DNA of 38,812 nt from Opitutia bacterium (lineage in GTDB: Bacteria > Verrucomicrobiota > Verrucomicrobiia > Opitutales > Opitutaceae): the NCBI GenBank assembly GCA_947467625.1, contig CANIJN010000017.1, positions 1-38,812 on the forward strand, given 5' to 3'. Under the pieces are notes generated by a model, which was given only the letters and a program-made list of their open reading frames with translations, did no database searches and was not told the origin of the DNA. This document shows positions 7,436 to 37,614 of the stretch, piece after piece (position 1 is the first letter of the stretch; every line of letters begins with the position of its first letter). Position numbers and translations under genes: made by a program.

Positions 7436-7439
7436 CGCC

Positions 7440-9589: not shown

Positions 9590-9593
9590 CGCC

Positions 9594-10296: not shown

Positions 10297-11082
10297 ATGA
10301 AAACCATACCCTCACTCGCCCTCGCCCTGCTGCTCACATCGCTGACCTCTCTGCCAGCCGCTGATCCCAAGCCGACCGCATCGTCCCACGACGACGCCCG
10401 ATGGCTGCGCGAGAAAGGTACGCTGATCTTCCACGACGCCTTCGAGCGCGAGGAAGACGGCAATCTCGCCAAGGCCATCGGCAACGGTTGGAACAGCGCC
10501 ACGGCCGACCGCGTGCCGCAGATCAAAATGGCCGATCTCGACGGCGGCATTCTCAAGATCGCCAGTGCCTCCAAGGAGGCCGGCCACTCCGCGCACATTC
10601 ATCACGAAGCCGGTTTCAGCGATGGTGGCGCCGTCGTCCGCTTCAAGTTCCCCGGATTGACGAAGGGCGAGTCGCTCCAACTCGGCTTCGTCGATCGCGA
10701 GACGCAAGGCATCCACGCCGGCCATCTTTGCTACGCGAATCTCGCTCCGAACGGCATCACGCTCATGGATTGGAAAACCGGCGTCATGAACCTCGAAATC
10801 CGCCAGCGTCGGCAACCTTACCTCGACCGCAAGGAGCCGCTGCCCGCCGATCTCGATGCGTTGCTCAAGACGAAGCAGATTACCGTGCCGTGGAAAGCCG
10901 ACACTGACTGGCATGAACTCGTCCTCCTGACCGAAGGCGACGAGATGCGCCTCAGCCTCGACGGCAAGCTCGTCGCCCGCCACCGCTCCGCCGGCTTCGC
11001 CCACCCGATGAAGCGCTGGTTCAGCTTCCTCGTGCCCAACACCGTGTGGATCGACGACGTGAAGATTTGGAAAGTGAAGTGA
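10297..11082 (+). CDS. Secreted concanavalin-like / DUF1080-like protein of unknown function
   Basis: Signal peptide MKTIPSLALALLLTSLTSLPAAD; LIFHDAFEREEDG..A.GNGWNSATADR and a beta-rich body ending WIDDVKIWKVK. Confidence 0.6.
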   Translation: MKTIPSLALALLLTSLTSLPAADPKPTASSHDDARWLREKGTLIFHDAFEREEDGNLAKAIGNGWNSATADRVPQIKMADLDGGILKIASASKEAGHSAHIHHEAGFSDGGAVVRFKFPGLTKGESLQLGFVDRETQGIHAGHLCYANLAPNGITLMDWKTGVMNLEIRQRRQPYLDRKEPLPADLDALLKTKQITVPWKADTDWHELVLLTEGDEMRLSLDGKLVARHRSAGFAHPMKRWFSFLVPNTVWIDDVKIWKVK

Positions 11083-12749: not shown

Positions 12750-12753
12750 TAAA

Positions 12754-15480: not shown

Positions 15481-15487
15481 GCCCCCC

Positions 15488-19928: not shown

Positions 19929-21332
19929 TTAAACATCGGCGTTCGCGCCGGTGCTGTCGGCGAACGATTCCGTTTCGACGCCGAGACGTTGCAGCATGGT
20001 GACGTAGAGATTCGACAACGGGAGATCCTGGTAAGTCGCCTCGAGCTGGTAGGGCTCTTTGCCGCCCAGCCAAGGGCCGCCCGCAGGGGTGCCTTTGATA
20101 TGATTGAGGAACTGCCCGTGCTTGAAGCCCAGGTTCTTTCCACCTGCCAGAATCAGCGGATAGTTACGCGAGAGGTGGAAGGCGCTCGAGGCGGAACCGA
20201 AGAGGAGCAGCGTGTTGTCCAGCATGTTGCCCGTGCCCCCGGCTTCGGGAGTCGCCTTCAGCTTGGCGGCAAAGCGGGCGAACTCTTCGCTCTGAAAGCG
20301 CGAATAGATGCCGAAGTTTTTCCAACCACCCGGTTCCTTCGTCGCGTGGCTCAGTTGGTGGGTGAGTTTAAAGCCCACGGCCCGCGCCAGATAATCGCTG
20401 ATACCGACGCCGTTTTCCCGACCAATCTGGTAGGTCGCGACTCGCGTGGTATCGGTTTTGAAGGCGAGGTAGAGTAACGCGTACATCGTCTGCAGATAGT
20501 TGCGCGGATCTTCCGGCGTCACGTCGAGTTGCAGGTGATCCACATCGACCGTCGCAAACGGGATATTCATCCAGCGCTTGGCCTTTTCAACTTTGATCTC
20601 CGTGTCGCGCACCGACTGGAGATACTGATCGAGCGTTTTCTGATCGTGGCCGGAAAGGAGTTTTTTCAAGGAGCGCGAGTCCTCCAAGAGATCGTCCAGC
20701 GCGCTTTGGCTCAGCGCCAATTTGCGCGCCGCATCGGCATCACTCTTTGCAAACAGCAGGTCGAAAATGCGCTTCGGTTTATGCTCCGCCGGGATAGCGC
20801 GGCCGTTGCGATTGTACGACATGGTCTGCGTGCCCCGAGGAGAGCCCGTGCCGCCGTCGGTGGACATCACGAGCGATGCGATGCGGGTATGCTCACCGGC
20901 TTGGGCGGCAAACACCTGATCGAGCGAGATGCTGTTCCGATAGTCACCACGCCCTCCCGTATTCGCTCCGGTGAGAAACTGGTCGGCGTTCGAGTGTCCG
21001 TGAACATTCCGCACCGCGGGATGAGAAAATCCGGCCAGCACCGTCATATCATTGCGCAGCGGCTCGAGCGGCTCGAGGCACTTGGTCAACGTGAAGTTCT
21101 GCCCGCTGCCATGGGGAAACCAGCTCCAGTCCGCGTGGGCCGGATCTTCCGCGAGCGGCATGGGCACTCCATCGGGAATATAAAAACACGCCAGACGTCG
21201 CCGCTTCTCCAGATTCTTCAGCTCGGCGGCGCTGGCGAGTGCGGCAAATGATTCAAACCAAGGCAGGGCCAGCGCGATGCCCGCTCCGCGCAGGAATCGA
21301 CGACGATCAATGGTGGACAGGTCGGTTTTCAT
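19929..21332 (-). CDS. DUF1552 domain protein with Tat-type signal (second copy)
   Basis: MKTDLSTIDRRRFLRGAGIALALPWFESFAALASA; RRLACFYIPDGVPMPLAED...LEPLRNDMTVLAGFSHPAVRNVHGHSNADQFLTGAN. Confidence 0.9.
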   Translation of the reverse strand: MKTDLSTIDRRRFLRGAGIALALPWFESFAALASAAELKNLEKRRRLACFYIPDGVPMPLAEDPAHADWSWFPHGSGQNFTLTKCLEPLEPLRNDMTVLAGFSHPAVRNVHGHSNADQFLTGANTGGRGDYRNSISLDQVFAAQAGEHTRIASLVMSTDGGTGSPRGTQTMSYNRNGRAIPAEHKPKRIFDLLFAKSDADAARKLALSQSALDDLLEDSRSLKKLLSGHDQKTLDQYLQSVRDTEIKVEKAKRWMNIPFATVDVDHLQLDVTPEDPRNYLQTMYALLYLAFKTDTTRVATYQIGRENGVGISDYLARAVGFKLTHQLSHATKEPGGWKNFGIYSRFQSEEFARFAAKLKATPEAGGTGNMLDNTLLLFGSASSAFHLSRNYPLILAGGKNLGFKHGQFLNHIKGTPAGGPWLGGKEPYQLEATYQDLPLSNLYVTMLQRLGVETESFADSTGANADV

Positions 21333-21371
21333 AGTGGGGTTTTGGCGGTGCGGCAGTCGGGGTTTCCTCGG

Positions 21372-24080
21372 CTAATTCGTCCTGAACAACTCACTGGTTA
21401 CGATCAGCGTGATGAGTTCGCCGAGTCGATCCCCTTTGTTTCTGAATTTCATCGTAAGTTCATCGACGCTCGCCCGGTCACTAAACGTCAGCGGCCGTCC
21501 CAAGGCGTAGGTGGTCAGTTTGTGCACCATCGCGTGGGCAAATTGATCCTGGCGGTCTGCGAGGAGGAAACGCTTCAGTCCATCGATACCCTCCAGTTTT
21601 TGCTTATTGAACAGGAGGCTGGAGGCATCGACCGGCGCCCCTTTGATTTGGTCTCGCCAACTCCCGACGGCATCAAAGTTCTCCAGCGCAATTCCCCACG
21701 GATCGATTTTCGCGTGGCAGGGCATACAGGCCGCGTGGCTCCGATGATTCGCGATCCGCTCTTTCAACGTCATCTTCGCAATCTCCGGATCAGCCAGATC
21801 GATCTCGGGCACAGCCGGGGGCGGTGGTGGCGGGGGATCATTGAGAATGCGTTCGAGAATCCAGATTCCCCGCTTGAGCGGGTGCGAATCTTTCCCGTCT
21901 GAATTCATGGCCAACAGACCCGCCTGAGCCAATAGCCCTCCTCGGCGATCCGCCGGGGTCAGCGACACCCGTCGAAAGTCACTCCCGTAGATTTCGGGCA
22001 GTCCGTAGTGCCGCGCGAGGCGCTCATTAACCATCGCGTAGTCAGCATGCAGGAAATCCAGCACGCTGTGATTTTGCCTCAGCACTTCCCTAAAGAAGGC
22101 GATCGGCTCACCCTGCATCGCTTCTTTCAACTCGGAATCGAATTGCGGATAAACCGTCTTCTCGACGTCCAAAAAATCGAGGAGCTGCAGGCCGAGCCAC
22201 TGTCGCACGAAGTGTTTGGCGAAACGCTCGCTCCGCACATCCGCCAGCATCCGTTGCGTCTGGGCGACCAGCACCGCCGGATCGTTCAGCTTCCTTTGCG
22301 CCGCCAAATCCACGAGTTCTTGGTCGGGCGTGCTACACCAGAGGAACATGGATAACCGCGTCGCCAGTTCGTCGTCCGACAGCCGCGCGACACCCCTGCT
22401 TTCCGGATCTTCCTGAATGAGATAAAGGAAGTTCGGAGACGAGAGCACGGTGGCGAGAACCTCGATCATCGCGGCCTGAAAACCATCACACCCCGGGCGC
22501 AATCGGGCGAACAACGCCATTTTCTGAGCGATCTCCGCTGCAGTTACGTGGCGCCGCCAAGCCCGCGGCAGGAAGCCCGCCAAGACCTCCCGTGCACGGG
22601 CCGTCTCGTCTCCCTCTTGCGCGGACTCGCCGAACACGCGCCGGTGCGATGCCGGTGGCCACTGCTCGTAAACGGGCGCCGTCACTTCCAGATAATCGAT
22701 CTGGATGTCTGCGCCGGTGCCGACGGCAGAACCATGATACACGCTCTGGAGCACGAGGTATTCCGACGGATTTGGAAAGCCGCCCAACGCTTTTACCCCG
22801 CGAAACGGATTGCGGCGCAGCTCGCCCAAAGGAACGGTCCATTCGTAAAACTGCGGCTGGTCAGGCGGCGCTTGGATCGCAATATCAGGACTGCCGATAC
22901 GCTCAGACGAACGGGAATTATTGCTGGGCTGAAAACCAAACTCGAGGCGGAGACTCGGCAAGCTTTTGCCCGTCGAAGCCACCCGAGCCGCGCGGGCGCG
23001 AACGCGCAGGGTGCCGGTGTCCGGCAGCGTATCGCCCAAATCAAATACATGCTGTCGATTGGCCGGTATAATCAGGACATGGGGGGAGAGCGCGGGCACT
23101 TCCGGCCGGATCGCGCTCGGTGGATAGGACATCTTTCCGCCTTGGTAGCTGTAAGTGGCCCGGGCGCCCGCACCGGTTTCCAAGTTTTTAAAATGGGTCC
23201 CACGCGGATCGATTTTTGGCGCGATCACCGGTTTGGCCGTTCTCTGCTCCGTTGGGCTCAGCGCTGGGGTGTCCCGCGCGCCCACATTCATCGTAATCCC
23301 GTAGTGGCTGACCGCCGGACGTTCGCCCCGCACGGTGGCCTTGAGCAGCGCGGTGCGACCGAGTTCGCGGTAATACTCGAACTGCACGACCGACATTTGC
23401 AGCAGGTCAGAGCTGTTCTCAAAACCCTCTTTGGTCCGAGTCTCCGGCGGCAAATCGGCGGCCAGATCGTAGGGCAACCCGAGCAAATCCTGTAGAGCGT
23501 AATTGTATTCGTAGCGCGTCATCCGGCGGAAGGATGAGTGCCCTTCCTCACTGCGTCGCACCTGCGAAGCGACCTGAATTTCCATCGAAAGCCATTCCAG
23601 TATTTTGCTGCGATTTTCACCGGACAGCTCCGGTTCATCCTTGGGCGGCATTTCGCCTTTACTGAGCACGCCCGACACCTCCAGCCACCAACTGACATCC
23701 GGACCGCGGAGCAGATCGGGATTCAGGGTATCGACCCGAAAATTGGCTTTCTGCTTCTCAGCTCCGTGACACTTGAAACAGGTCTCCCGCAAAATGGGCT
23801 CAATCTCCCGCCGGAACACCGCAAGCTTGGGCTGCGAGGTTTCGCTGCCGGCGGACGCGACCGCGTGATGCGAAAACCGCGACCGCAGCGCACCGGCCGC
23901 CTTGACCTCATCGAGGGTGGGGAGCGTCACCGTATCCGGCGCGTCTCCGCGTCTCGGCAGTTCCACCGTGGATTTCGGCGGCGTGACGTTATTCGGCTGC
24001 GCCGGGGCGAGCGCCGCCCCGAGAAACGCCAACGCGAGCAATGCAGCGCGGGGCTGCCAGGTAGGGGGCTTGGGTTTCAT
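21372..24080 (-). CDS. DUF1592-type cytochrome c domain protein (second copy)
   Basis: ATG at 24080 (MKPKPPTWQPRAALLALAFLGAALAPAQ); IEPILRETCFKCHGAEKQKANFRVDTL, FRRMTRYEYNYALQDLLGL, HAACMPCHAKIDPWGIALENFDAVGSWRD; two CXXCH motifs. Confidence 0.9.
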   Translation of the reverse strand: MKPKPPTWQPRAALLALAFLGAALAPAQPNNVTPPKSTVELPRRGDAPDTVTLPTLDEVKAAGALRSRFSHHAVASAGSETSQPKLAVFRREIEPILRETCFKCHGAEKQKANFRVDTLNPDLLRGPDVSWWLEVSGVLSKGEMPPKDEPELSGENRSKILEWLSMEIQVASQVRRSEEGHSSFRRMTRYEYNYALQDLLGLPYDLAADLPPETRTKEGFENSSDLLQMSVVQFEYYRELGRTALLKATVRGERPAVSHYGITMNVGARDTPALSPTEQRTAKPVIAPKIDPRGTHFKNLETGAGARATYSYQGGKMSYPPSAIRPEVPALSPHVLIIPANRQHVFDLGDTLPDTGTLRVRARAARVASTGKSLPSLRLEFGFQPSNNSRSSERIGSPDIAIQAPPDQPQFYEWTVPLGELRRNPFRGVKALGGFPNPSEYLVLQSVYHGSAVGTGADIQIDYLEVTAPVYEQWPPASHRRVFGESAQEGDETARAREVLAGFLPRAWRRHVTAAEIAQKMALFARLRPGCDGFQAAMIEVLATVLSSPNFLYLIQEDPESRGVARLSDDELATRLSMFLWCSTPDQELVDLAAQRKLNDPAVLVAQTQRMLADVRSERFAKHFVRQWLGLQLLDFLDVEKTVYPQFDSELKEAMQGEPIAFFREVLRQNHSVLDFLHADYAMVNERLARHYGLPEIYGSDFRRVSLTPADRRGGLLAQAGLLAMNSDGKDSHPLKRGIWILERILNDPPPPPPPAVPEIDLADPEIAKMTLKERIANHRSHAACMPCHAKIDPWGIALENFDAVGSWRDQIKGAPVDASSLLFNKQKLEGIDGLKRFLLADRQDQFAHAMVHKLTTYALGRPLTFSDRASVDELTMKFRNKGDRLGELITLIVTSELFRTN

Positions 24081-24342
24081 GGGGGGCCGAGGGGACTCAA
24101 TAAAGAATGTGAATCTCGAGATTAGGCTGACAAGGAAACTCCGAGTACAGGTTCCACGTTTCCGCTCCAATCAGTGGAAGCGCACGGTGAACGCACGCTG
24201 TATTCAGAATTCAAACGTACCCGTAAGGACGTGATTGCGGGAGCGGCGGATGCCCCTGAGCACGGCAACGATAGCGTTGGGCCTGCCGGAGATCGCAGGG
24301 GTGTCGTCATCCGATTTCACGAGCCGCGGCGGTGGCGCAGGG

Positions 24343-25362
24343 CTAACGCAAGCGCACCCTCGCCGCCGCCGGCTCCACCCACCGGCCGGGAAACAGCAGC
24401 ATGCGCGGCGAGATCGGCACGCCGAGTTCGTGGCTGTTGAGTTGGCTCACGACCAGATCGACCGCGTTCGCCGCCACCATGTCGTAAGCTTGATCGACTC
24501 CGCCAATCTCCGGCGCGGTCGGCAGCCAGTGCAGAGTGTAGATCGGTCGCTCCCCCGCCTCATCGCCCCCCATCGCACGAAATTGTTCGAGGGTTGCGTA
24601 GTCGCTGACGACGACCGCATCGGGCTGGCTCTCCTTAATCCGTCGTGCGATCGCGCGACGGCTTTCGGGCAGCCCTATCCACAACAATTCCGCCGCCGCG
24701 GCGCGAGTCGGGTGGAACACCGCAAACGCCGCCTCCCACGCCCGCCGAGCCCGCTCGTTTACGACCGCCTCCAGAATCGCCATCGGCCGCCGACAACCGG
24801 CCGCAGCCAGTCGCTCCAGGGCCATACGCATCGCGAGATAATGATGGTGTCCGGCGTGGTGGAGGTCCGGATTCCACCGGGCGCTCCCAATCACCGCCGG
24901 CGCGAAACCGCTCAAATCCAAATCCAGCGAAACCTCGGCTGCGTGCATCACCGGCGACAAGAGCAGGCCCACGATTCCCCTCGACTTCATCACATGCGAC
25001 AAACGCCGGTCGCTCATCCCGCGCTCGCCCGTCCAGAACGGCTCTACCCCATAGCCCAACGCCTCGGCCCGCGCCTTGGCACCGAGAAAAACACGTTGGA
25101 GAAACGGATCTCTCGCCGACTCCGCGCGCGAAGTGTGCACCCAAACAAACGCGATGCGTTCTCCCGCCGCGACCGGACGGGAGTTGCGGATATGGGACAT
25201 CAGCGCCGAGAAACGCGGGTTCGGTCGATAGCCCAACTGCGCGGCCACCTTTTGCACCAACGCCCGTGTTTCCGGGCGGATTCGCGGATCGTCCCGCAGC
25301 GCATAGGAAACCGTGGCGAGACTACAGTCGGCGGCGCGGGCGATTTGTTGTAGGGTGATCAC
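24343..25362 (-). CDS. LacI family transcriptional regulator (paralog of 1159..2250)
   Basis: MITLQQIARAADCSLATVSYALRDDPRIRPETRALVQKVAAQLGYRPNPRFSALMSHIRNSR...ERIAFVWVHTSR; shares ERIAFVWVHTSR, GHHH and MLLFPG.WV motifs with the first LacI. Confidence 0.93.
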   Translation of the reverse strand: MITLQQIARAADCSLATVSYALRDDPRIRPETRALVQKVAAQLGYRPNPRFSALMSHIRNSRPVAAGERIAFVWVHTSRAESARDPFLQRVFLGAKARAEALGYGVEPFWTGERGMSDRRLSHVMKSRGIVGLLLSPVMHAAEVSLDLDLSGFAPAVIGSARWNPDLHHAGHHHYLAMRMALERLAAAGCRRPMAILEAVVNERARRAWEAAFAVFHPTRAAAAELLWIGLPESRRAIARRIKESQPDAVVVSDYATLEQFRAMGGDEAGERPIYTLHWLPTAPEIGGVDQAYDMVAANAVDLVVSQLNSHELGVPISPRMLLFPGRWVEPAAARVRLR

Positions 25363-25411
25363 GACAAGGATGCGATGGCACTGGAGAGGTCATGCGCCGG
25401 TTCCGACGAAG

Positions 25412-25475
25412 GCAATCGTGCTAATTGAAGGGTTTCAAAGAAACGACAGTAGCATCCCCGTTGGTGCCGGCTAAA
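25412..25475 (+). repeat. Regulatory/leader repeat copy A
   Basis: gcaatcgtgctaattgaagggtttcaaagaaacgacagtagcatccccgttggtgccggctaaa; near-identical to copy B at 28844..28905; each is followed about 80 bp later by ATGAGAAA. Confidence 0.75.
25432..25444. promoter_or_regulatory. Candidate operator GTTTC-AAA-GAAAC upstream of unit 2
   Basis: Perfect 5-bp inverted arms, 3-nt spacer, between the divergent LacI gene and the plus-strand unit; overlaps a second inverted repeat TTGAA-GGGT-TTCAA. Confidence 0.35.
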
Positions 25476-25558
25476 CGTTGCTGACCTCCCAAACTCTCAG
25501 GCCCGTTCCTGCCTCGCTTCCCCGTAGCCAGCATCCCTCATTCTATGCGCCCCTTTCG

Positions 25559-25881
25559 ATGAGAAACTTACTTCGTTCCACCGCGCTCGCCGCCGTTGGG
25601 GTGTTAGCCGGTGCGCGCGCCGCCAATCAGGCCGATTCGCGACTCATGCTGAGGGATGATCGTCGGCCCACGATGAAGCAGAGTCGCTGCTCGTCGGCAA
25701 CGGCCGCGCGGGGAGATGGTGCACGGCGGCTTTCGCACCGAAATCAAAACGAAACTCGCCGCACTCGCACCCTACCCCATCGCTCCCCACGGCCGACCAA
25801 AGCCTCGCCGTCGGTCGCGAGCACGTACTCACTTTTTCCACGACCGCCGGCCAGATTTACCGCATCACTGCAGCTCGCTGA
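25559..25881 (+). pseudogene. GH95-like (alpha-L-fucosidase-type) remnant, internally deleted and frameshifted
   Basis: MRNLLRSTALAAVGVLAGARAANQADSRLMLRDDRRPT (signal/N-term), frameshifts giving DEAESLLVGNGR and GEMVHGGFRTE (cf. GH95 ALPVGNGRLGAMV.GG), then DQSLAVGREHVLTFSTTAGQIYRITAAR* as a plausible C-terminus. Confidence 0.55.
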
Positions 25882-25939
25882 AAAACGCGACGCACGCGCC
25901 CTCTCCTCTTCAAGCCACACTGCCACGAATAGATTCTCT

Positions 25940-28831
25940 ATGAAGCCCCTGTATCAGACGTTCACGTTCCTCTGTCTTGTCGGTGCACTGTGCGCGATTG
26001 CTGCCGAGCCGCCCGTGGTCGGGCCGGCCGCGCGGCTCACCGTCACGCCCTCGGGCGAGCTCGAAGTCGCGATGGCTGACGGCGCGGTCGCCCGGTTTGC
26101 CCCACTCGTGGCCGTGTTGGCCACACGGGCGAATCCGAATGTCGATATGCGCTGGGGGAAGTTTCCCGACGCCGCCTTGAGACTGAACGATACGGGCTCG
26201 CTCTACAACGTGCTGACGTGGGGTGCGAAAGACACCGGCGGGAAAGTCTCAACAGCGCACGTCGAGGACGGGTTCGACCCGACGGTTGATCGGGGCTACG
26301 GGGCCGGGCGCACCGCGAATCTCTTCGCTGCGGGCAAACTGAAGACCTTGCGTGCCAGCGCCAGCCGCTCCGACGGCAACAAAATCACGTGGGACTTCCC
26401 CGCCGATGACACGGCCACCGTGCGGCTCGAACTCGATCTGCCGACGGACGGCACCGCGCCGCGCCTGCGGCTGAAGACGACCGTGAAGGCGGACGGGTGG
26501 TATTCGTTTGGCTACGTGGGCGCCCCCGAGACTCCGGCCAACGCAGTCGAGGAACTTTGGCAGCCGCTCATCTACAACGAACGGCGTTTTCCGCATGAAT
26601 CTTTTCTCGAGGCCGCCTATCGCTGCCCGCTGCCGACCACCTTGGTCACCCATGGCGGCGTGACGACCGGCGTGCTCGCCGACCCCGCCGAGTACCCGTT
26701 TCAGCCGCTGCCGAATTTCGCAAACTCCCGCTTCGGCGTGGCCCTGCGCAACGCCCGCGGACTCGCGCAGCCGATGCTCTTCGCCCCGCTGCTCGGTGGC
26801 GCCGGTTCGCAGATGAAGGCCGGCGAGTCGCGCGAGTTCGTGATGCGGCTCGTCGTTGCCAAAGCGAACCTCTCCGCCACCTACGAGCGCGTGGCCCGCA
26901 CCCTCTACGGCTTCGCCGATGTGCGCCACAACGCTCTGGGTTCGCTCAACGCCACCTTCGAGCGCATGCTGGAATTCGGCCTGAGCGACTACGCGAAATT
27001 CAATGCCGACCTGCGCGGTTTCGCCTACGACACCGATGTGCCCGGGGCGGTGAAGAACGTCTCCGCCCTTCATCCACTCGGCCTCGCCCTCGTCACCGAC
27101 CGCCCGGAAATCTACACGCGGCTCGCGCGCCCGCTGATGGAGTATTTCGTGTCGCGCGAGCGTTTCCTTTTCACGACCGATCCCAAAGTAAAGGGCCAGT
27201 CCGCCTCTTCGCACCTGAGGGGGCTGGGCGCGCCGCTCACCGAATACGCGAATCTCTACGCGATGTCGGGCCAACGCACCCCGTTCTTTCGCACCTCCGC
27301 CGAGAGCTTGTTCGGCCGGGACCGCGTCTTAAATCTTCAAGGCAATATTCGCGGCGACAACTGGTCCAACGCCCTCGGCCTTTACCGTGCGACGGGGGAA
27401 AAGCGTTGGCTCGACCATGCCATCAAGGATGCCGACGCCTATCTCAAGACCCGCGTCGGAGTGCGGGCGGCGGACTATTCGGACCCCGATTCCCGGGGAT
27501 TGTTTTTTTGGACGGCGTTCACCCCGCAGTGGATCGAATTGTTTGAACTCTACGAAGAAACCAAGCTGCCACGCTTCCTGGCTGCAGCCCACGCCGGCGC
27601 ACGGGACTACGCGCAGTTTGTCTGGCTCGCACCGCGCATTCCCGGCGGTGACGTCCGCGTAAACGAGGATGGCCTGGCGCCGGCCTACCGGTCCGGACCA
27701 CGTTTCCCGCGGATCAAGGCCGAGCCCGAAACCGTTCCCGCGTGGCGCACGTCCGAGATCGGCCTCACCAGCGAGTCCGCCCCGACCAGCAAAGGTGCCC
27801 GCGGCATTCTCCTCGCCTGCTACGCACCGTGGATGCTGCGCATCGCTTCACTCACGAACGATGCGTTTCTCCACGACATCGCCCGTTCCGCCATCATCGG
27901 CCGCTACACCAGTTTTCCCGGTTACCATATCAACACCGCGCGCACGACCGCCTATGAGAAACCGGACTTCGCCCGTCGTGGAAAAGACGAACTCAACTCG
28001 GCGACTTCGATTCACTACAACCACATCTGGCCGCACATAGCCTTGCTGCTCGACTACCTCGTGGCGGACGCATTCGCAAAGTCGCGCGGTGCTATCGATT
28101 TTCCGGCGCGCTACGCCGAGGGTTACGGCTACCTGCAACAACGCGTGTTTGGCGATCGCCCCGGCAAGGTCTACGACGAAAGCGGTCTCTATCTATGGAT
28201 GCCGCGCGGCGTGCTCACCGTCGATCACCCCGAACTCAACTTCGTGATGGCCCGCGGCGACGCCAAACTCGCCATCGCCCTCACCAACCAGTCGAAGTCT
28301 GCGGTCAAATCTCAGGTCACGCTCTCGCGCGAGCGCATCGCGCTCGCCCCGGGCGCCAACGCGAAAGTCACCGTGTGGGAAAACAACCGGCGCATCCGCG
28401 AGGAACCGTTGCCGGCCGATGCCCGCATCGCCGTGGACGTCGCCGCCGAGGGAATTACCACGCTGATCATCAGTGGCGTGAAGCCGCGCGTAGCGTTTCA
28501 GAATCAGATTCTCGGCCGCGCCGCACGTCTCCCGGCGGAAAGTGTCGTCGACCTCGGCTGGCGCGGCGCGCGCGGCGTCGTGCTCTCATTCGGCGCGGGT
28601 GAACTCACGAGTGCTTACGTTTACCTGCCCGATCAGGAGCGCGTCGTGACGAAGTGCACGGTCCACTATCGGCAAGGCGGCGGCGAGTTCCTCACCATGA
28701 CGGACGCAGCGTATCCCTACGATTTTACGCTGCCCGTCGCGGGCGACGCGCCATTGGAGTTCTGGTTTGAGACTCAGTCAGACGCCGGGCCTGCGGAGAA
28801 ATCTCCCGTCGGGCGTCTGCTCCTGAAGTGA
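25940..28831 (+). CDS. Large secreted protein of unknown family, candidate polysaccharide-degrading enzyme with helical-toroid-like middle region
   Basis: ATG at 25940 (MKPLYQTFTFLCLVGALCAIAAEPP signal); the ORF-track extension to 25478 runs through the GH95-like remnant. Helical repeats (ALGLYRATGEKRWLDHAIKDADAYLKT, FFWTAFTPQWIELFELYEETKLPRFLAAAHAGARDYAQ); C-terminal beta-rich domain. No family recognised with certainty. Confidence 0.6.
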   Translation: MKPLYQTFTFLCLVGALCAIAAEPPVVGPAARLTVTPSGELEVAMADGAVARFAPLVAVLATRANPNVDMRWGKFPDAALRLNDTGSLYNVLTWGAKDTGGKVSTAHVEDGFDPTVDRGYGAGRTANLFAAGKLKTLRASASRSDGNKITWDFPADDTATVRLELDLPTDGTAPRLRLKTTVKADGWYSFGYVGAPETPANAVEELWQPLIYNERRFPHESFLEAAYRCPLPTTLVTHGGVTTGVLADPAEYPFQPLPNFANSRFGVALRNARGLAQPMLFAPLLGGAGSQMKAGESREFVMRLVVAKANLSATYERVARTLYGFADVRHNALGSLNATFERMLEFGLSDYAKFNADLRGFAYDTDVPGAVKNVSALHPLGLALVTDRPEIYTRLARPLMEYFVSRERFLFTTDPKVKGQSASSHLRGLGAPLTEYANLYAMSGQRTPFFRTSAESLFGRDRVLNLQGNIRGDNWSNALGLYRATGEKRWLDHAIKDADAYLKTRVGVRAADYSDPDSRGLFFWTAFTPQWIELFELYEETKLPRFLAAAHAGARDYAQFVWLAPRIPGGDVRVNEDGLAPAYRSGPRFPRIKAEPETVPAWRTSEIGLTSESAPTSKGARGILLACYAPWMLRIASLTNDAFLHDIARSAIIGRYTSFPGYHINTARTTAYEKPDFARRGKDELNSATSIHYNHIWPHIALLLDYLVADAFAKSRGAIDFPARYAEGYGYLQQRVFGDRPGKVYDESGLYLWMPRGVLTVDHPELNFVMARGDAKLAIALTNQSKSAVKSQVTLSRERIALAPGANAKVTVWENNRRIREEPLPADARIAVDVAAEGITTLIISGVKPRVAFQNQILGRAARLPAESVVDLGWRGARGVVLSFGAGELTSAYVYLPDQERVVTKCTVHYRQGGGEFLTMTDAAYPYDFTLPVAGDAPLEFWFETQSDAGPAEKSPVGRLLLK

Positions 28832-28843
28832 AAAAACTCGAAC

Positions 28844-28905
28844 GCAATCCCCTAAATTGAAGGGTTCAAAGAAACGAGGATAGACTCCTGATGGTGCCGG
28901 CTAAA
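28844..28905 (+). repeat. Regulatory/leader repeat copy B
   Basis: gcaatcccctaaattgaagggttcaaagaaacgaggatagactcctgatggtgccggctaaa; matches copy A at 25412..25475. Confidence 0.75.
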
Positions 28906-28984
28906 TCCTCCGAATTTTCCCTATCGGTGAACGAGGACAACCTTGGTCGGCCGTCATCAACCCCACCTCTACCCGCCCCTATCG

Positions 28985-29107
28985 ATGAGAAAATCCCTCC
29001 CTCCCGCCGGTCAGGTGCCAAGGTCGGCGATCACACTCCTGCGCCAAGAGATAGTCCGCGACGCAGTGCCCCGGCCACGTAGTCTTCGGCTGCGTCCCAC
29101 GGCATAA
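28985..29107 (+). other. Short 40-aa ORF (leader peptide or gene remnant) after repeat copy B
   Basis: ATGAGAAAATCC... = MRKSLPPAGQVPRSAITLLRQEIVRDAVPRPRSLRLRPTA*, ending 12 nt before the next start codon; its cccctatcgATGAGAAA context matches cccctttcgATGAGAAA of copy A. Confidence 0.35.
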
Positions 29108-29119
29108 CCATCACCGCCC

Positions 29120-32008
29120 ATGCGTCCACCTCGTCGCCCCGCCCTTGCCTTGTTTATGCTTCTGCTCGTCGCACGCGCGAACGGTGCCGATGCGCTCGAC
29201 GCCGGCTTCGCTACGCCGCCTCCGGTCGCCCGCCCGCTCGTGTGGTGGCATTGGATCAATGGCAACGTGTCCAAGCACGGCATCGAGGCCGACCTCGCCG
29301 ACATGAAGCGCGTCGGGATCGCGGGTGTGCAGATGTTCGACGCGAGCATCTACCTGCCCGCCGGCCCCGTGCGCTACGGCACCGACCTCTGGCACGAGCA
29401 CGTGCAGCACGCGATCGCCACGGCGGACAAACTTGGCCTGGAGTTTCACCTCATGAACACGCCCGGCTGGTCCGCCAGCGGCGGCCCGTGGGTCACGCCC
29501 GAGCGCTCGATGAAAAAGCTCGTGTGGAGCGAAACAGCGGCGACCGGTGGCGGCGCGCTCACGCTCGCCGTGCCGCCGCCGAAGATCGAGCCGCTGAAGT
29601 TCCGCTCCCCGCCCGTGAAAAAAATGGAGAATTTTTTCCGCGATATCGTCGTGCTGGCCGTTCCGGCCGAATCCACCCGCCGCACTCCCGATTGGGAATT
29701 CAAGACCAAGCTCAAGGAGAAGACGCTCACCGCTGCGCCGCTCGACCCGGATGCCTCGGGCTGCATCTCCCGCGCGCAGGTGCTCGACCTCACGGCGGAC
29801 TTTGATGCCGCCACCGGCACGTTGCGCGCCAAGCTCCCCGCCGGCGAGTGGACGATTTTGCGCTTCGGATTTACGTCCACTAGTTCGACGAACCATCCCG
29901 CCGTGCCCGAGGGCCACGGCCTGGAGATCGACAAAATGGACGCGGACGCCGTGTCGTTCTACTTTGATCAGGCGCTCGGCCGCATTTTGCGCGAGGCCGG
30001 CCCGAGCGTCGGCCGCACGCTCAAAGGACTGCTTTTCGACAGCTTCGAGGGCGGCCCGCAAAACTGGACGGACACGTTCCCCGCGCAGTTCCGCGCGCTG
30101 AAGGGCTACGATTTCGTGCCGCTCCTGCCCGTGCTGACGGGCCGCGTGGTGGAGAGCCCGTCGTTCACCGAAGCGGCGCTGCGCGATTTCCGCGGCGCGG
30201 TCGAGCAGCTGATCGCGAAGAACTATTTCGGCACGATGCAGCGGCGCGCGCACGAGCGCGGGATGGTCGTTTACGCTGAGGCGCAGGGCGGACCGCTGAA
30301 TCCGGTTTCGGCGAACGAGTTTGTCGATGTGCCGATGAATGAATTCTGGATGCCCGACACCGCACCGCGTTTTCCGCGCATCAAGCTCGTCGCGTCCGTC
30401 GCCAATGTCCTCGGGCGCCCGCTCGTCGCCGCCGAGTCGTTCACCGCCAAGCCCGAAGACGGCCGTTGGCTCGCGACGCCCGCCACGCTCAAAGATCCCG
30501 GCGACTATGCGTGGACGGCCGGCATCAACCGCTTCATTTTGCACCACTACGTGCACCAACCCACCGACGACGGCCCCGGTTTCGGCCTCGGCCGCTACGG
30601 CACGCATTTCGGCCGCCTCAACACCTGGTGGCCGCTCGCCGGCGCGTGGATCGACTACGTGGCGCGCGGACAGTTTCTCCTGCAACAGGGCCGCACCGTT
30701 ACTGACATCGCGTTCCTCAACACCGAGGACCACGGCTACGCCTTCCCCGGCGACATGGTGACGACGCCGGCCGGCTACGATTTCGACATCGTCTACCCGC
30801 ACCATCTCGCCGCGATGACGTGGCGCGACGGCGCGCTCACGCTTCCGACCGGGCCCACGTATCGCGTCCTCATGCTGCCGGCGAACTGGACCGCCGATCT
30901 CACGACGCTGCGCCGCCTCCGCGATTTCGCCCGCGCCGGTGCACCGATCTACGGCGATGCGCCCGCGGCTCCCGCCGGTGTGCGCGATTACGAGGCGCGC
31001 GAGGAATTCGCCGCGCTCGTCCGCGAGTTGTGGGAAGCTCCCCGCCCGCTGATCCGGCGGGGGGCCCTGCCCGCTGCGCTCGGTGCAATCGGTCTCGCGC
31101 CCGACGTGGTGCTCCCGGCCCCGCCCGCGGGGGGCGAACTCCGCTTCATTCACCGCCGCACACCCGACGCGGAAATCTACTTCGTTTTCAATCACTCGGA
31201 TCGCGACGTCGCCGGCGACTTCACCTTCCGCGTCACCGGCCGCCAGCCCGAACTTTGGAACGCCGTCACTGGCGCGCAGGCCGATTCCCCCGGCTATCGT
31301 GCGACGGCCACCAGCACTACGGTGCCGCTCGAGCTTGAGCCCCGCGGCTCCATGTTTGTGATTTTCCGTCGCCCGCTTCTGACCCCGCGCGCCGATGCTC
31401 CGAAGACTGCGGTCGCCGCGACGCTGCCGATCGCCGGACCGTGGCACGTCGTATTCCACGACGGTCGCGGCGCCCCGCCCAACGCCACCTTTGCGACCCT
31501 CGCCTCGTGGACGGAACACGAAAACCCCGCCATCACGTTCTACTCGGGCACCGCCACGTATCACACCACCTTCGTGATTTCCGCCGCCAATTTCCGCGCT
31601 GGCGCGATCGCCACACTTGAACTCGGCACGGTCGCCGATCTCGCCGAAGTCCGGCTCAACGGAACGCTCATCGGCACCCTCTGGCAGCCGCCGTTTCGCG
31701 TCGACGTCACGCGCCACCTGCGCGCCGGCGACAACCTCCTCGAAGTCCGCGTGGCCAACCGTTGGATCAACCGCGTGATTGGCGACGAGTCACTGCCCAC
31801 CGATCTCACTTATCAACCCGAGGGCACGAATAAGTTTACCGACGGAAGGCTCAAACAACTCCCCGCCTGGCTTTACGACCGCTCTCGTCTCTCCGAGCGG
31901 AAGCGCTACAGCTTCACCACGTGGAAACACTACGAGGCAAAATCTCCGCTCGTCCCCTCCGGTCTGCTGGGCCCCGTCAAGATCGATTGGAGAACGCCAG
32001 CGCCGTAG
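29120..32008 (+). CDS. GH106-like glycoside hydrolase (putative alpha-L-rhamnosidase) with C-terminal sugar-binding-like domain
   Basis: RPLVWWHWINGNVSKHGIEADLADMKRVGIAGVQMFDASIYLPAGPVRYGTDLWHEHVQHAIATADKLGLEFHLMNTPGWSASGGPWVTPERSMKKLVWSE; C-terminal FRAGAIATLELGTVADLAEVRLNGTLIGTLWQPPFRVDVT...LLEVRVANRWINR. Confidence 0.85.
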   Translation: MRPPRRPALALFMLLLVARANGADALDAGFATPPPVARPLVWWHWINGNVSKHGIEADLADMKRVGIAGVQMFDASIYLPAGPVRYGTDLWHEHVQHAIATADKLGLEFHLMNTPGWSASGGPWVTPERSMKKLVWSETAATGGGALTLAVPPPKIEPLKFRSPPVKKMENFFRDIVVLAVPAESTRRTPDWEFKTKLKEKTLTAAPLDPDASGCISRAQVLDLTADFDAATGTLRAKLPAGEWTILRFGFTSTSSTNHPAVPEGHGLEIDKMDADAVSFYFDQALGRILREAGPSVGRTLKGLLFDSFEGGPQNWTDTFPAQFRALKGYDFVPLLPVLTGRVVESPSFTEAALRDFRGAVEQLIAKNYFGTMQRRAHERGMVVYAEAQGGPLNPVSANEFVDVPMNEFWMPDTAPRFPRIKLVASVANVLGRPLVAAESFTAKPEDGRWLATPATLKDPGDYAWTAGINRFILHHYVHQPTDDGPGFGLGRYGTHFGRLNTWWPLAGAWIDYVARGQFLLQQGRTVTDIAFLNTEDHGYAFPGDMVTTPAGYDFDIVYPHHLAAMTWRDGALTLPTGPTYRVLMLPANWTADLTTLRRLRDFARAGAPIYGDAPAAPAGVRDYEAREEFAALVRELWEAPRPLIRRGALPAALGAIGLAPDVVLPAPPAGGELRFIHRRTPDAEIYFVFNHSDRDVAGDFTFRVTGRQPELWNAVTGAQADSPGYRATATSTTVPLELEPRGSMFVIFRRPLLTPRADAPKTAVAATLPIAGPWHVVFHDGRGAPPNATFATLASWTEHENPAITFYSGTATYHTTFVISAANFRAGAIATLELGTVADLAEVRLNGTLIGTLWQPPFRVDVTRHLRAGDNLLEVRVANRWINRVIGDESLPTDLTYQPEGTNKFTDGRLKQLPAWLYDRSRLSERKRYSFTTWKHYEAKSPLVPSGLLGPVKIDWRTPAP

Positions 32009-32055: not shown

Positions 32056-35000
32056 ATGAATCCCCAACGATCCTTCACTTCCTCTGTGCCCAATCGAACG
32101 TATATTTCCGTCCGACGTGTTGTTTTGATTCTGTTAGCGTCGCTCTTTTTTGTTCTTGGCGCTCAGGCCCAATCCTCGGGCGAGTCCATGGGCGTGGTCC
32201 AAGGCACGGTGTCCAACGCGGTGAGCGGTTCCCCGCTCGGCCGCGCTAAAGTCGCCATCCGAGGCACGGCCCAGGAGACGCTGACGGATGACGACGGCCG
32301 GTTTTATCTCCGGGGAGCCCCGGCCCAGGAGATCGAGTTGGAAGTTTCCTATTTGGGATTCGGGTCGCAAAGGTCACGGGTGACGGTGCCGCCCGGCGGA
32401 CAGGTTGCGCAGGATTTCAAGCTCAGTCGCCAGGGAACCGATCATCGCGGCGCGGAAGCCCAGACGATTGTGCTGGAGACGTTCCAGGTGGTCGCGGAAC
32501 AGACCATGAGCGGCCAGGCGGTCGCGATGAACGAGCAACGCCATGCGGCCAATATCAAAAACGTGGTCTCGTTCGATGAACTCGGTGACCGCGGCCAGGA
32601 AAACATCGGCGATTATGTGCGCTTTCTCCCCGGTGTCACCATTCTGGACGACGGCACAAATCCCGGTCGGATTGCGCTGGGCGGTTTTCCCGCGGAAATG
32701 TCCAACATTCAGATCGACGGCATGGATGTGCCTGCCACCGGCATTGGCGCGACCAGCAGTCGCACCGCGGCGCTGCAGGACGTGCCAATCCTGAACATCG
32801 AGCGCGTAGAGGTCTCGAAGGTGCCCACGCCCGACCTGCCCGCTTCCGGCTTGGGCGGATCGATGAACCTGATCGCGAAGACCGGAGTGGGCCTCAAGCG
32901 CCCGGTCGGTCGCTACCAAGTGTATATGAATTTCGACAACGTGGACGGCTTGAGTTTCAACGGCGGTTCGCCGCAACCGCACGACCGGGCATCGCCGCGC
33001 CACAAGGAGCCCTCGTTCAGCCTGAGCTACGCCTTCCCGGTAGGGAAGACGCTCTCGGTGAGCCTGGGGGGCTCGCGCTCATGGCGTCAGCGGCCGACAG
33101 ACGACACGCCCTCCGAGGTCGCCTTTTGGAACCTCAAGAAGACCTATTTGGCAACCGGCGCGCCGAAGGATTTGGCGCTTGCGATCACGCAGTGGCGGCA
33201 GGAGGCCTCGATCTCCCGGACCGAGAATCTCCAGCTCGGCCTCGATTGGCGGCTGACCACCCACGACACCCTCAGCCTGCAGGTCCAGGAACGCTCGGTG
33301 GTCGAAAAGAAGGCCCAGAGCTTCATGACCGCGCGCGTGAACGCCGGCTACGACGCGATCGGCAATGCGGATTACACCCAAAGCCGCGGTGCGACCGGTA
33401 GCTTCGAAATGGGCACCCTCAATCCGTCAAATTTCGACGCGACTACCGACACCAGCATGCGTTCGCTGAAGTATCAGCATCGCGGCCCGGCGTGGAACAT
33501 CGACGCGCAGGCCTCCTACTCTGCCGCCGACCGCGAGCGCAGCAGCCTCGGCAAGGGCTACTTCAACGGCGTCCTGGCCAGCGTCCTCGCCGCCAACATC
33601 CGCGGCGACGGCATCGGGAAGGGTGCGAGCATCGGACCGGAAACCTATACGATCACCCGCGCCAACGGCACGCCGGTGGATCCCTTCAACGCCAACAATT
33701 ATACGCTCGGCACGGCGAATGAAGAGTATGCCCTGTACCAGACGGACCTCACGGCTGGGCGTCTGAACGTGAGCCGCGCGATCGGCCGGAACCTCACGCT
33801 CAAGGTCGGCGGCGCTTTCAACCGTCTCGAAAAGGACGACACCCGTCCGGTCAAGAACTACACCTTTGTCGGCCGGGCCGCCGGTCAGACCGCCGTCTCG
33901 CTTTATGACCTCGTGGACGATTCGATCGACGTGAAAGTGAACGGGAACCCAGTGCGCTGGATCAGCCCGGTGAAGGCCTATGATCTCTTCGTGCAACACC
34001 CGGAGTATTTTACCCTGAACAACACGTTCATAGCGAATCGGGCGCAGAACTCCAAGCGGATGCTCGAGGATATCCTGGCCGGCTACTTTCGGTTCGATCT
34101 GCGCCTGCTCTCCGGCCGGTTGAACGTCACCAGCGGTGCCCGCTATGAGAGAACCGACCTCAAAGGCTGGAGCCTGAAGCGCGACAACTTCGCCATCTAC
34201 CAGCGGGATGCAGCGGGAAAACTGCTACTCACGAGCACGGGCGCGTTGATCCCCGTCACCAACAATGCCGACGATCGCCTCAGGCTAATCAATCAGGAGC
34301 GCGGCAACATCGAAAGCCAGGGTTACGGCGGGCTCTATCCCAGCCTGAACGCCAATTACGCGATCACCGACAACTTAGTGGCGCGGGCCGCCTATGCGCG
34401 GACACTCGGCCGTCCGGACGTGCAATACGTCGTCGCGGGAGTCACGGTGCCCGTTCCCACCGACACCAATGCGACGACGGCCGACATTATCGTAGTCGGC
34501 AATCCCGGCCTGAAGCCTTGGACCGCGGATAGTTTTCACCTGTCCCTCGACTCCTATCATCTCAAGGGCGGATTCGGCTCCATCGGAGTCTACCAGAAGA
34601 GGGTCAGTAATTTCTTCGCCCAACGCGGCCGGCCGGCCACCGCGGCCACACTTGCGGCCTACGGCATCCCGAAGGGCGACATCGCCTATATGTTGGCCGA
34701 TAACTGGGTCGTGCGCCGCTGGGAAAACGTCGGTGACGCCACTCTGAATGGCCTTGAGCTGAGCTACCGCCAGGATCTGCTGTTCATGCCGTCATGGTTA
34801 CAGTTAATGCAGGCTTGGGTGAACTACACGCATCTGAAGGTAGGCGGACGCAATGCGGCGGATTTCGTGGGTTTCAGCCCCGATACTCTGACGGCGGGGT
34901 TGAACTACATCCGGCCGCGCTTCTCCGTCCGGCTGACTGCGGCCTATCAAGCCGAGACGAAGCGATCGGAGGTTGTGGTCACTCCCGGTACCTCGGCCGA

Positions 35001-35232
35001 AGGGTTCATCCCGCAGTCCACCTTTGAATACCAGGCGGCCTACACCCGCTACGGCATCAGCGCGGAATACGCCCTGAGCAAGACCTTCGCCCTCTACGTA
35101 AACTGGGACGACGTGTTCGCCAAGGACCGCTTGGTGTATCGCCGGGCCCCGGATACGCCGGCCTTCGCCCAAACCGCCCAACGCTACGTCAGCCCTTCCT
35201 ATATCGTGATCGGCGTGAAGGGCAGTTTCTGA
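32056..35232 (+). CDS. TonB-dependent receptor with N-terminal carboxypeptidase-regulatory-like domain
   Basis: GVVQGTVSNAVSGSPLGRAKVAIRGTAQETLTDDDGRFYLRGAPAQEIELEVSYLGF; plug NIGDYVRFLPGVTILDDGTNPGRIALGGFPAEMSNIQIDGMDVP; C-terminal YVSPSYIVIGVKGSF. Confidence 0.93.
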   Translation: MNPQRSFTSSVPNRTYISVRRVVLILLASLFFVLGAQAQSSGESMGVVQGTVSNAVSGSPLGRAKVAIRGTAQETLTDDDGRFYLRGAPAQEIELEVSYLGFGSQRSRVTVPPGGQVAQDFKLSRQGTDHRGAEAQTIVLETFQVVAEQTMSGQAVAMNEQRHAANIKNVVSFDELGDRGQENIGDYVRFLPGVTILDDGTNPGRIALGGFPAEMSNIQIDGMDVPATGIGATSSRTAALQDVPILNIERVEVSKVPTPDLPASGLGGSMNLIAKTGVGLKRPVGRYQVYMNFDNVDGLSFNGGSPQPHDRASPRHKEPSFSLSYAFPVGKTLSVSLGGSRSWRQRPTDDTPSEVAFWNLKKTYLATGAPKDLALAITQWRQEASISRTENLQLGLDWRLTTHDTLSLQVQERSVVEKKAQSFMTARVNAGYDAIGNADYTQSRGATGSFEMGTLNPSNFDATTDTSMRSLKYQHRGPAWNIDAQASYSAADRERSSLGKGYFNGVLASVLAANIRGDGIGKGASIGPETYTITRANGTPVDPFNANNYTLGTANEEYALYQTDLTAGRLNVSRAIGRNLTLKVGGAFNRLEKDDTRPVKNYTFVGRAAGQTAVSLYDLVDDSIDVKVNGNPVRWISPVKAYDLFVQHPEYFTLNNTFIANRAQNSKRMLEDILAGYFRFDLRLLSGRLNVTSGARYERTDLKGWSLKRDNFAIYQRDAAGKLLLTSTGALIPVTNNADDRLRLINQERGNIESQGYGGLYPSLNANYAITDNLVARAAYARTLGRPDVQYVVAGVTVPVPTDTNATTADIIVVGNPGLKPWTADSFHLSLDSYHLKGGFGSIGVYQKRVSNFFAQRGRPATAATLAAYGIPKGDIAYMLADNWVVRRWENVGDATLNGLELSYRQDLLFMPSWLQLMQAWVNYTHLKVGGRNAADFVGFSPDTLTAGLNYIRPRFSVRLTAAYQAETKRSEVVVTPGTSAEGFIPQSTFEYQAAYTRYGISAEYALSKTFALYVNWDDVFAKDRLVYRRAPDTPAFAQTAQRYVSPSYIVIGVKGSF

Positions 35233-35260: not shown

Positions 35261-37594
35261 ATGAAGAGATCGACCCCGATACTGTTAATCGGCCTCGCAG
35301 CCTCGCTCGGTGCCGCCGAGGTGCCCCGTTTTGAAGCGGACGTGCTTCCGGTGTTGTATCGTCACTGCTTCAGCTGCCACAGCGAGAAACCGGCGAAACC
35401 CAAGGGCGGGCTACGGTTGGATTCGGCGCAGCGGATTGGCGACAGCGATGTCGTCGTGCCCGGCATGCCCGACGCAAGCGAGTTGCTGCGGCGCGTGTCG
35501 CTGCCGCCCACCGATCCAGACGTGATGCCGCCGCTGAAGGGCGGCGCGCAGCCGCTCTCCGATGCCGAGCGTGCGTTGCTGCGCTCTTGGATCACCGCCG
35601 GCGCGAAACTGGACGGATGGGTGAAATTCCAGCATCGCGAGGCACCGCTCGGTGAGCCCGGCGCGACGGTAGCGCGCACGGCGGTGCCGGAGGTCGCCCG
35701 CCACGTGGATACCTTGATCGATCGCCACCATACGGCCAAGGGCACCACGTTGAACGCGCCCGCCAGCGACGAGGTGTTTCTGCGTCGCGTCTACCTGGAC
35801 GTCGCCGGCCGCATCCCGAGTCAGGAGGAAAGCACGCGCTTCCTCGCCGACACCCGCGAGGACCGGCGGGGCCGGCTGATCGACGCGTTGCTCGCTGGCG
35901 AGGGCTATGTGAGCCACACGTACAACTGGAAGGCGGACCAGCTCCGCCTCAACCCGCGCGCGCTGGCCGGCGGGCAACCGGCGTGGCTCTACGACGACTG
36001 GGTCAAGGACGCTATCCGCACGGGCCAGGCGCATGACGAGACAGTGCGCCAGCTCATCACCGCCAAAGGCTACCTCTGGGAAAACGGCGCGGCGGGATTC
36101 TACCTGCGCGATCTCGGCATGCCCCTCGACCACGCCTCCAACCTGTCACGCGTCTTCCTCGGCACGCGAATGGAGTGCGCCCAGTGTCACGACCACCCGC
36201 TCGAGCCCGTGACGCAGAAGGATTTTTTCCAGATGGCGGCCTTCACCGCCGGGGTGTCCAACCTCAGCAGTCCCGGCGGCTATTCCAATGACAACGTCAC
36301 GCAGTGGCCGGAGATCAAAGCCCGCTTGGCGCGAATGGACGCAGACAAGGCGCTGCAAGATGGCGTGAGCCGTGCGATCTCTCCTCTGAAGCGACTCACG
36401 AAGGACACGGAAAAACCGCTCACCTTTCCGGCGACGTATGTCTACGACAAATCTGTGCAGGGCCACCCCGTGGCTCCCCGGACGCTCTTTGGCGATGAGG
36501 CTCCGGTCATCGACGGCGACCGCCGCCGGGCCTTTGCGGAGTGGATGACGTCGCCGCGCAATCCACGGTTTGCCAAGAACGCGGCCAACCGACTCTGGAA
36601 ACGCGTCATGGGCGCCGGCCTGATCGAGCCCGTGGACAGCCTCACGGCGCTGCCGCATCCGGAGCACCGCGAGTTGCTCGAAGTTCTCACGTCCGCACTG
36701 ATCGGCTTTCGTTTCGACGAGCGGGCGTTCCTCGCCGTGCTGCTGAATACGCGTCTGTATCAGAGCGAAGCCGTGCGCGAGCGACCCGAGCCCGGGTCGG
36801 CCTTCGGGTTGCACGGCCCGCTGCTGCGGCGACTATCGGCGGAACAAATCTGGGACTCGCACCTCGTGCTCCTCGTGCCGGATCTTGATGAACGCAAATC
36901 CGCCGTGCGGCACGAGGGATCCCTTTTGAATCCGGCGCGGTTACGCCGGCTCACCACCATGAACGCCGATGAGATTATCGCGCGGTCCCGCGACGAAATG
37001 GCCTACCGCGTCCGGCGCCGGGAACACACGCTCCGGCTCGCAGAGCAGAAGAAGGAACTCGCCGCCGCCCAAGCCGGCGGGAATGCCGCCGAAGTGCGGC
37101 GCGTGCAGGCCGACCATGTCCGGGAGAACGAGACTTTTTATAGTCCTGAACTGCAGGCGTTGGAAATGGGCGATGCCCAACCGTCGCCGGAAACCGATCC
37201 GCGCTGGCAATCGCTGCCGCGAAATTTTCTGCGCGCCTCGGAGATTCCGCTGCCGTTGCCGCTCGGCCACTTTCTGCGCCAGTTCGGCCAGTCGGATCGG
37301 CGCGAGATCGACGCGTTCAACCGCGATCCCAACACCACCCACGCCCTAGCGTTGATGAACGGCGAACTCGCCGCGCGCATCCTCGCACCAGACTCCCATC
37401 TGCGGCGCCAGTTGGCGGCGGCCGACGGGCGCAGCGAACGAATGACAGCGCTCATCTACCGCGCCATCCTCGTGCGCTCTCCGAGCGCCGGAGAGCTCTC
37501 GACCATAGCGACGCTCACGGCCACGAGCCTCACGCCGGTGGAGGACACGATTTGGGCGCTGCTGAACTCGCCCGAATTTCTCTTCCAACGTTAA
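35261..37594 (+). CDS. DUF1549/DUF1553 domain protein with cytochrome c-like motifs
   Basis: FEADVLPVLYRHCFSCHSEKPAKPKGGLRLDS; FLRRVYLDVAGRIPSQEE; MECAQCHDHPLEPVTQKDFFQMAAFTAGV; AANRLWKRVMGAGLIEPVDSL; two CXXCH motifs. Confidence 0.9.
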   Translation: MKRSTPILLIGLAASLGAAEVPRFEADVLPVLYRHCFSCHSEKPAKPKGGLRLDSAQRIGDSDVVVPGMPDASELLRRVSLPPTDPDVMPPLKGGAQPLSDAERALLRSWITAGAKLDGWVKFQHREAPLGEPGATVARTAVPEVARHVDTLIDRHHTAKGTTLNAPASDEVFLRRVYLDVAGRIPSQEESTRFLADTREDRRGRLIDALLAGEGYVSHTYNWKADQLRLNPRALAGGQPAWLYDDWVKDAIRTGQAHDETVRQLITAKGYLWENGAAGFYLRDLGMPLDHASNLSRVFLGTRMECAQCHDHPLEPVTQKDFFQMAAFTAGVSNLSSPGGYSNDNVTQWPEIKARLARMDADKALQDGVSRAISPLKRLTKDTEKPLTFPATYVYDKSVQGHPVAPRTLFGDEAPVIDGDRRRAFAEWMTSPRNPRFAKNAANRLWKRVMGAGLIEPVDSLTALPHPEHRELLEVLTSALIGFRFDERAFLAVLLNTRLYQSEAVRERPEPGSAFGLHGPLLRRLSAEQIWDSHLVLLVPDLDERKSAVRHEGSLLNPARLRRLTTMNADEIIARSRDEMAYRVRRREHTLRLAEQKKELAAAQAGGNAAEVRRVQADHVRENETFYSPELQALEMGDAQPSPETDPRWQSLPRNFLRASEIPLPLPLGHFLRQFGQSDRREIDAFNRDPNTTHALALMNGELAARILAPDSHLRRQLAAADGRSERMTALIYRAILVRSPSAGELSTIATLTATSLTPVEDTIWALLNSPEFLFQR

Positions 37595-37614
37595 CCGCCC
37601 TTTCCCCAGCCCCC

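Follow-up and report, generated by a model that had tools for sequence, protein, structure and literature searches.

An unclassified family of candidate secreted carbohydrate-active enzymes with a predicted (alpha/alpha)6 toroid in an Opitutaceae glycan locus

Introduction

What is the role of a secreted 963-aa protein encoded next to an alpha-L-rhamnosidase and the remains of a GH95 gene, and to which enzyme family does it belong? The question is raised by a 38,812-nucleotide stretch of DNA (hereafter the window; contig CANIJN010000017.1, assembly GCA_947467625.1) from an Opitutia bacterium of the Opitutaceae, in which an initial annotation, made from the letters alone, had proposed a novel secreted carbohydrate-active enzyme (CAZyme). 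In lakes and seas, carbon bound in methyl-pentose polysaccharides turns over slowly, and the pathways that degrade these polymers are incompletely known. Freshwater Verrucomicrobia are reported to be rich in GH29, GH78, GH95, GH106 and PSCyt genes (PMC5615132), and marine Verrucomicrobia to be fucose and rhamnose specialists (PMC8857213). Here we report that the protein very probably cuts polysaccharides, and we hold with high confidence that it is an unclassified secreted CAZyme.

Results

The gene and its decayed neighbours

The frame called by the initial annotation was recovered with the same coordinates, start and stop (Table 1). Close relatives begin at the ATG equivalent to 25940 and carry a similar signal peptide, which spans about residues 1-22 here; a longer open reading frame from a TTG at 25478 arises because the leader of the decayed upstream GH95 gene shares the frame. 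Against five relatives, substitutions fall mostly at third codon positions, with dN/dS of about 0.1; against the relative at locus L044 they number 25/24/161 by codon position (dN 0.024, dS 0.257). The third-position bias and the low ratio therefore indicate a real gene under selection, and strong purifying selection acts on it.

The upstream GH95-like remnant suspected earlier is borne out by two pieces, window 25731-25832 (residues 591-624 of a relative's GH95, E 1e-4) and 25792-25878 (residues 811-839 of that GH95, E 1e-3), and by locus L032, where an open, intact GH95 frame occupies the site. The stretch 28839-29000 is a probable second GH95 remnant; at L042, L043 and L045 a GH95 gene directly follows the family gene. 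Elsewhere the genome holds one intact GH95 gene and another split across two frames. The same type of leader had been noted initially, and a 69-bp element, 78% identical between its two copies, is indeed present at 25407-25475 and 28839-28905. The palindrome TTGAA-N3/4-TTCAA with its AGAAAC tail has exactly two copies in the genome, both at this locus; with no further exact copy, no wider regulon was found. Allowing up to three mismatches, the palindrome recurs at 14 relatives' loci (L032-L038, L042-L045, L076, L093 and L100), each time oriented like the family gene, and it is a likely candidate for the operator of the divergent LacI regulator.

Table 1. Features of the window and of the 963-aa protein
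Feature	Position	Strand	Description
GH28	11046-12749		
LacI-family regulator	24343-25362	-	divergent from family gene; PF00356, E 6.5e-13
Leader element 1	25407-25475	+	palindrome TTGAA-N4-TTCAA at 25425-25438
Decayed GH95 gene	25559-25939	+	signal-peptide start, short 3' pieces
Family gene	25940-28831	+	963 aa, secreted, unclassified family; ATG 25940, stop at 28831
Toroid domain	26870-28123	+	residues 311-728; invariant acids D366, E401, E612
Leader element 2	28839-29000	+	palindrome at 28857-28869, then GH95-type start only
GH106 alpha-L-rhamnosidase	29120-32008	+	PF17132, E 7e-188; N-terminal signal-like stretch
TonB-dependent outer-membrane receptor	32056-35232	+	
PSCyt1/PSCyt2/PSD1 planctomycete-type cytochrome c protein	35261-37594	+	
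DUF1501 protein	37552-38811	+	incomplete at contig end
Domain bounds (AlphaFold2 model)	residues ~28-310, ~311-728, ~729-963		beta-sandwich; (alpha/alpha)6 toroid; C-terminal beta
Toroid collar residues (conservation, model)	K372, N373, R406, R621, R655, Y662, H663, N665, R668, H692, N694, H695		

Searches against known families

Pfam and NCBIfam searches with the 963-aa protein gave nothing at E up to 1, and a PDB sequence search gave no match of note; a plasmid search gave zero matches, and no curated NCBI family names any of the 23 relatives scanned. The lack of a GH or PL placement reported initially thus stands for Pfam, NCBIfam and PDB sequence searches, none of which returned the confident match to a characterised family that was to count against novelty. 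"Unclassified" is meant relative to these three resources, and a recent CAZy family may already include the protein. The titles and abstracts of the literature on GH189-GH194 and PL43-PL45 describe nothing like it.

Family profiles were built from 23 and later from 58 relatives. Against the PDB, their better matches are weak and lie inside the toroid, namely GH76 structures (E 6e-5), GH105 (yteR) and similar six-hairpin enzymes; the GH88/GH105 and GH76 similarity is weak, covers about 80-100 residues and leaves the beta domains unmatched. GH127 (PF07944) is weakly matched by the toroids of 46 of the 58 relatives (best E 1.3e-5) and GH88/GH105 by eight (best E 1.2e-3), and weak toroid matches are confined to the six-hairpin families GH127, GH88, GH76 and GH9. 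The curated GH127 cut-off (24.9) is exceeded by a single divergent paralog (25.2, i.e. by 0.3 bits) and is not reached by the 963-aa protein, which has no match to PF07944 at E up to 1; for GH88/GH105 the best divergent paralog scores 23.2, below the cut-off of 26.6. Profile-profile comparison with hhalign gave a probability of 38-66% for GH127, 0.5-0.8% for PL26 and 0.4-1.1% for GH95, and neither the PcRGLX domains nor the GH95 catalytic profile gave a Pfam match. PL26 was also tried as a distant parent, weak PL26 and GH127 matches sharing frames in some genomes, and was rejected at hhalign probabilities below 1%.

The cysteines that form the zinc site and nucleophile of GH127 (E-x-C and CC) have no counterpart here: no cysteine is strictly conserved in the family, and CC..N occurs in 0 of 58 sequences. 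Most GH127 proteins of this bacterial family carry the E-x-C motif, and hhalign places the region of E612 near the GH127 loop that bears it.

Distribution of the family

A scan of representative genomes yielded 213 matching stretches, and the best 76 loci among them were retained. The family is found in Verrucomicrobiota, Planctomycetota, Lentisphaerota, Bacteroidota and bins named Acidobacteria and Hydrogenedentes; among 150 genomes from the same bacterial family 26 carry the gene, as do 15 of 289 (about 5%) across the phylum. The family tree has two main groups with phyla mixed within each, and several loci hold one member per group, at two of them with a GH43 gene in between. Divergent members bear additional modules, CBM96 and a T9SS-type secretion-tail domain in one (L099:6075-9863) and PA14 in another (L083:564-3845), and many Bacteroidota members have lipobox-like cysteines close to the N-terminus. 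Cultured relatives occur in Cyclobacterium, Algoriphagus and Parapedobacter.

Predicted structure and conserved residues

The AlphaFold2 model of the 963-aa protein, made with an alignment of 58 relatives, has a mean pLDDT of 90.8 and a pTM of 0.92 (pLDDT 88 for the toroid folded alone). It predicts an N-terminal beta-sandwich, a toroid of twelve helices (about 336-714) and a beta region at the C-terminus (about 720-960), just the order of helical-toroid middle and beta-rich ends that had been read from the sequence. The models thus display the twelve-helix toroid that defines the six-hairpin (alpha/alpha)6 superfamily, and comparison with known alpha/alpha-toroid folds, as the initial annotation had recommended, gave toroid TM values of at most 0.52.

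No PDB chain fell below E 1e-3 in the Foldseek search with the toroid. The best matches were D-mannose isomerase and cellobiose 2-epimerase (AGE type; E 1e-3, TM up to 0.52), and GH88, GH76, PL27 and PL2 were further fold matches. Among the 50 listed full-length PDB matches were GH95, GH94, GH65, GH97 and GalM-like chains; within that list the highest query-normalised TM, 0.28, belonged to the PL27 enzyme 5no8, the others being at or below 0.20, and 5no8 reached a TMq of 0.42 against the toroid alone. All of these values, taken on the predicted model, are too low for family membership. A search of a viral fold library gave nothing useful.

Conservation was scored on the 58-sequence alignment. 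Of 33 conserved polar toroid residues, 26 map to loops that connect an outer with an inner helix or to the first turns of inner helices, regions that make up 57% of toroid positions (hypergeometric p 0.006). D366, E401 and E612 are the only strictly invariant acids of the toroid, and E401 sits on an outer helix. Divergent paralogs have D or E at the D366 position and retain E612, R406, R655 and Y662. We infer from this pattern a putative catalytic pocket that combines a pair of acids with a collar of basic residues.

Genomic context

The adjoining GH106-like gene and the GH28 gene of the earlier description were both found (Table 1). Around relatives lie genes for GH95, GH106, GH43, GH29, sulfatases, SusC/SusD, FAD oxidoreductases (PF12831), GFO/IDH/MocA proteins, PSCyt2/DUF1501, LacI regulators, GHMP galactokinases and a raffinose-synthase-like protein. 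Linkage was counted on all Opitutaceae loci of at least 14 kb that belong to the tree group of the window gene (clade A; n=14): GH106 is present in 10 of 14 and GH95 in 6 of 14. Because genomes carry few GH106 genes, the chance expectation is about 1.5% per locus, for loci that are related and not phylogenetically independent. One apparent neighbour, cluster C6unk879, was discarded, since it appears to consist of antisense frames overlapping the family gene, with no Pfam match.

The FAD oxidoreductase (PF12831) lies near the family in many loci, mainly of the second tree group (among them L055, L058, L060, L065, L070, L077, L084, L087, L091, L093 and L098). At L032:12889-17328 a 1480-aa protein fuses a 3-keto-disaccharide hydrolase domain, a GDSL esterase, DUF7133, HEAT repeats and cytochrome c; fusions of this type also occur at L036, L044, L057 and L064, hinting at oxidative glycan breakdown. 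Window 5292-10256 encodes a DHDPS-family aldolase, an MFS transporter, a galactonate-type dehydratase, a DGOK kinase and a KDPG-type aldolase, an oxidative sugar-acid pathway of the De Ley-Doudoroff type. Three planctomycete-type cytochrome c units (window 12637-16792, 19929-24170 and 35261-38811) surround the glycan genes, twice as DUF1592/1588/1587/1585/1595 with DUF1552 and once as PSCyt2/PSD1 with DUF1501.

Discussion

The proposal of an unclassified secreted CAZyme has gained from the absence of a family match and the predicted toroid and beta domains, and further from the polysaccharide utilisation loci of relatives and the CBM96 and PA14 modules of divergent ones. The explanation that we favour, to which we give about even confidence as a whole, is an unclassified CAZyme acting as a toroid hydrolase with an acid pair and working alongside GH106 and, in relatives, GH95. 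The catalytic domain would be the (alpha/alpha)6 toroid of the six-hairpin glycosidase superfamily, a fold predicted with high confidence, flanked by a predicted mutarotase-like beta-sandwich and the C-terminal beta domain. Helix order and conservation suggest that the substrate is held on one conserved face of outer-to-inner loops, where acid-base catalysis, with protons handled by the putative pair D366 and E612, would hydrolyse the glycosidic bond, and where a basic collar of K372, R406, R621, R655 and R668 with three histidines may grip an anionic sugar, for example a uronate or a sulfated residue. From the gene context, the GH106 partner would take off L-rhamnose and, in relatives, the GH95 partner L-fucose or L-galactose, with uptake via the TonB receptor and control probably by the divergent LacI regulator.

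The reaction would be that of an inverting hydrolase or a lyase, and hydrolysis is the likeliest choice, which we would grant an evenly balanced chance of being right. As a polysaccharide lyase, the protein would neutralise a uronate with its basic collar and abstract the C5 proton by His, Tyr or Lys, for example beside rhamnose as PL27 does. The active face is rich in invariant K, R, H, Y and N, a rhamnosidase is the neighbour, and 5no8, which gave the best full-length TM among the 50 listed matches, shares with the model the order of a beta-sandwich followed by an (alpha/alpha)6 barrel (PMC8377490). However, its TM lies below the level of membership, 5no8 is absent from sequence and family-profile searches at E up to 10, and the two acids conserved in toroid loops are not required by lyases, so that we consider a lyase rather unlikely.

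Divergent membership of an established six-hairpin family of CAZy (GH127/GH146 or GH88/GH105, for instance) would account for profile matches that are weak but recurrent and for the proximity of E612 to the GH127 E-x-C loop. This reading is already disfavoured and improbable in our view, because the protein itself matches neither profile at E up to 1, only one divergent member passes the GH127 cut-off, and both a strictly conserved cysteine and the CC motif are missing. AGE-type enzymes are compact cytosolic proteins, whereas the protein here is secreted, carries two additional beta domains and is encoded amid secreted glycoside hydrolases; a secreted AGE-type epimerase or isomerase of a sugar or glycan is therefore very improbable, even though AGE enzymes head the toroid matches, at Foldseek E-values that barely attain 1e-3, and the active face carries three invariant histidines. 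Least probable of all is a role as a non-catalytic glycan binder or scaffold: none of the family members found has a known activity, but about 26 polar residues, acids included, cluster on one face and are retained across phyla.

For the favoured toroid hydrolase we infer as substrate a glycan, probably acidic, that contains rhamnose and fucose or L-galactose. The rhamnogalacturonan suggested initially is possible and partly supported, in that it agrees with GH106, GH28 and the galactonate-type pathway of the window, but the GH95, GH29, GH43 and sulfatase genes around relatives would suit any glycan, often a sulfated one, that is rich in methyl-pentoses. If it comes from plant debris, the substrate may be rhamnogalacturonan or an arabinogalactan bearing Rha-GlcA ends; an algal or cyanobacterial exopolysaccharide is equally likely.

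More tentatively, and at somewhat less than even confidence, these proteins may be founders of a new CAZy family of PVC and Bacteroidota bacteria with an undescribed cleavage specificity, for example at an acidic sugar in an algal or cyanobacterial exopolysaccharide rich in methyl-pentoses; a link to oxidative steps, suggested by the nearby FAD and GFO/IDH/MocA oxidoreductases, is possible. A CAZyme family with more than 200 matching stretches in representative genomes would then be missing from Pfam and NCBIfam, and its recognition would supply a missing piece in the prediction of glycan degradation by Verrucomicrobiota and Bacteroidota. The cultured Cyclobacterium, Algoriphagus and Parapedobacter relatives make the family directly testable.

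Among known systems, the GH127 beta-L-arabinofuranosidases share the (alpha/alpha)6 catalytic domain and a weak profile similarity over the toroid helices, whereas the protein here lacks conserved catalytic or zinc cysteines and places a beta-sandwich before the toroid. GH88/GH105 and GH76 share the fold and short helix-repeat signatures. The PL26 rhamnogalacturonan exo-lyases (PF21345 family), whose Pfam domain names imply a three-domain plan, are common in Opitutaceae, this genome included, and are similar in size and plan, but the hhalign probability is below 1% and the protein has no Pfam match. PL27, a rhamnose-alpha-1,4-glucuronate lyase (BACCELL_00875, 5no8), has the N-terminal domain order of the model and a rhamnose-linked context; it differs in the absence of a sequence match, in a full-length TM of 0.28/0.37 and in lacking the C-terminal beta domain of about 230 residues found here. 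GH65, GH94 and GH95 are built from an N-terminal supersandwich, a toroid and a C-terminal beta domain. Their TM values are at most 0.23 and hhalign with GH95 gives at most about 1%, but their domain order is that of the protein described here, and GH95 (2eab) and GH94 stand high in the full-length fold search.
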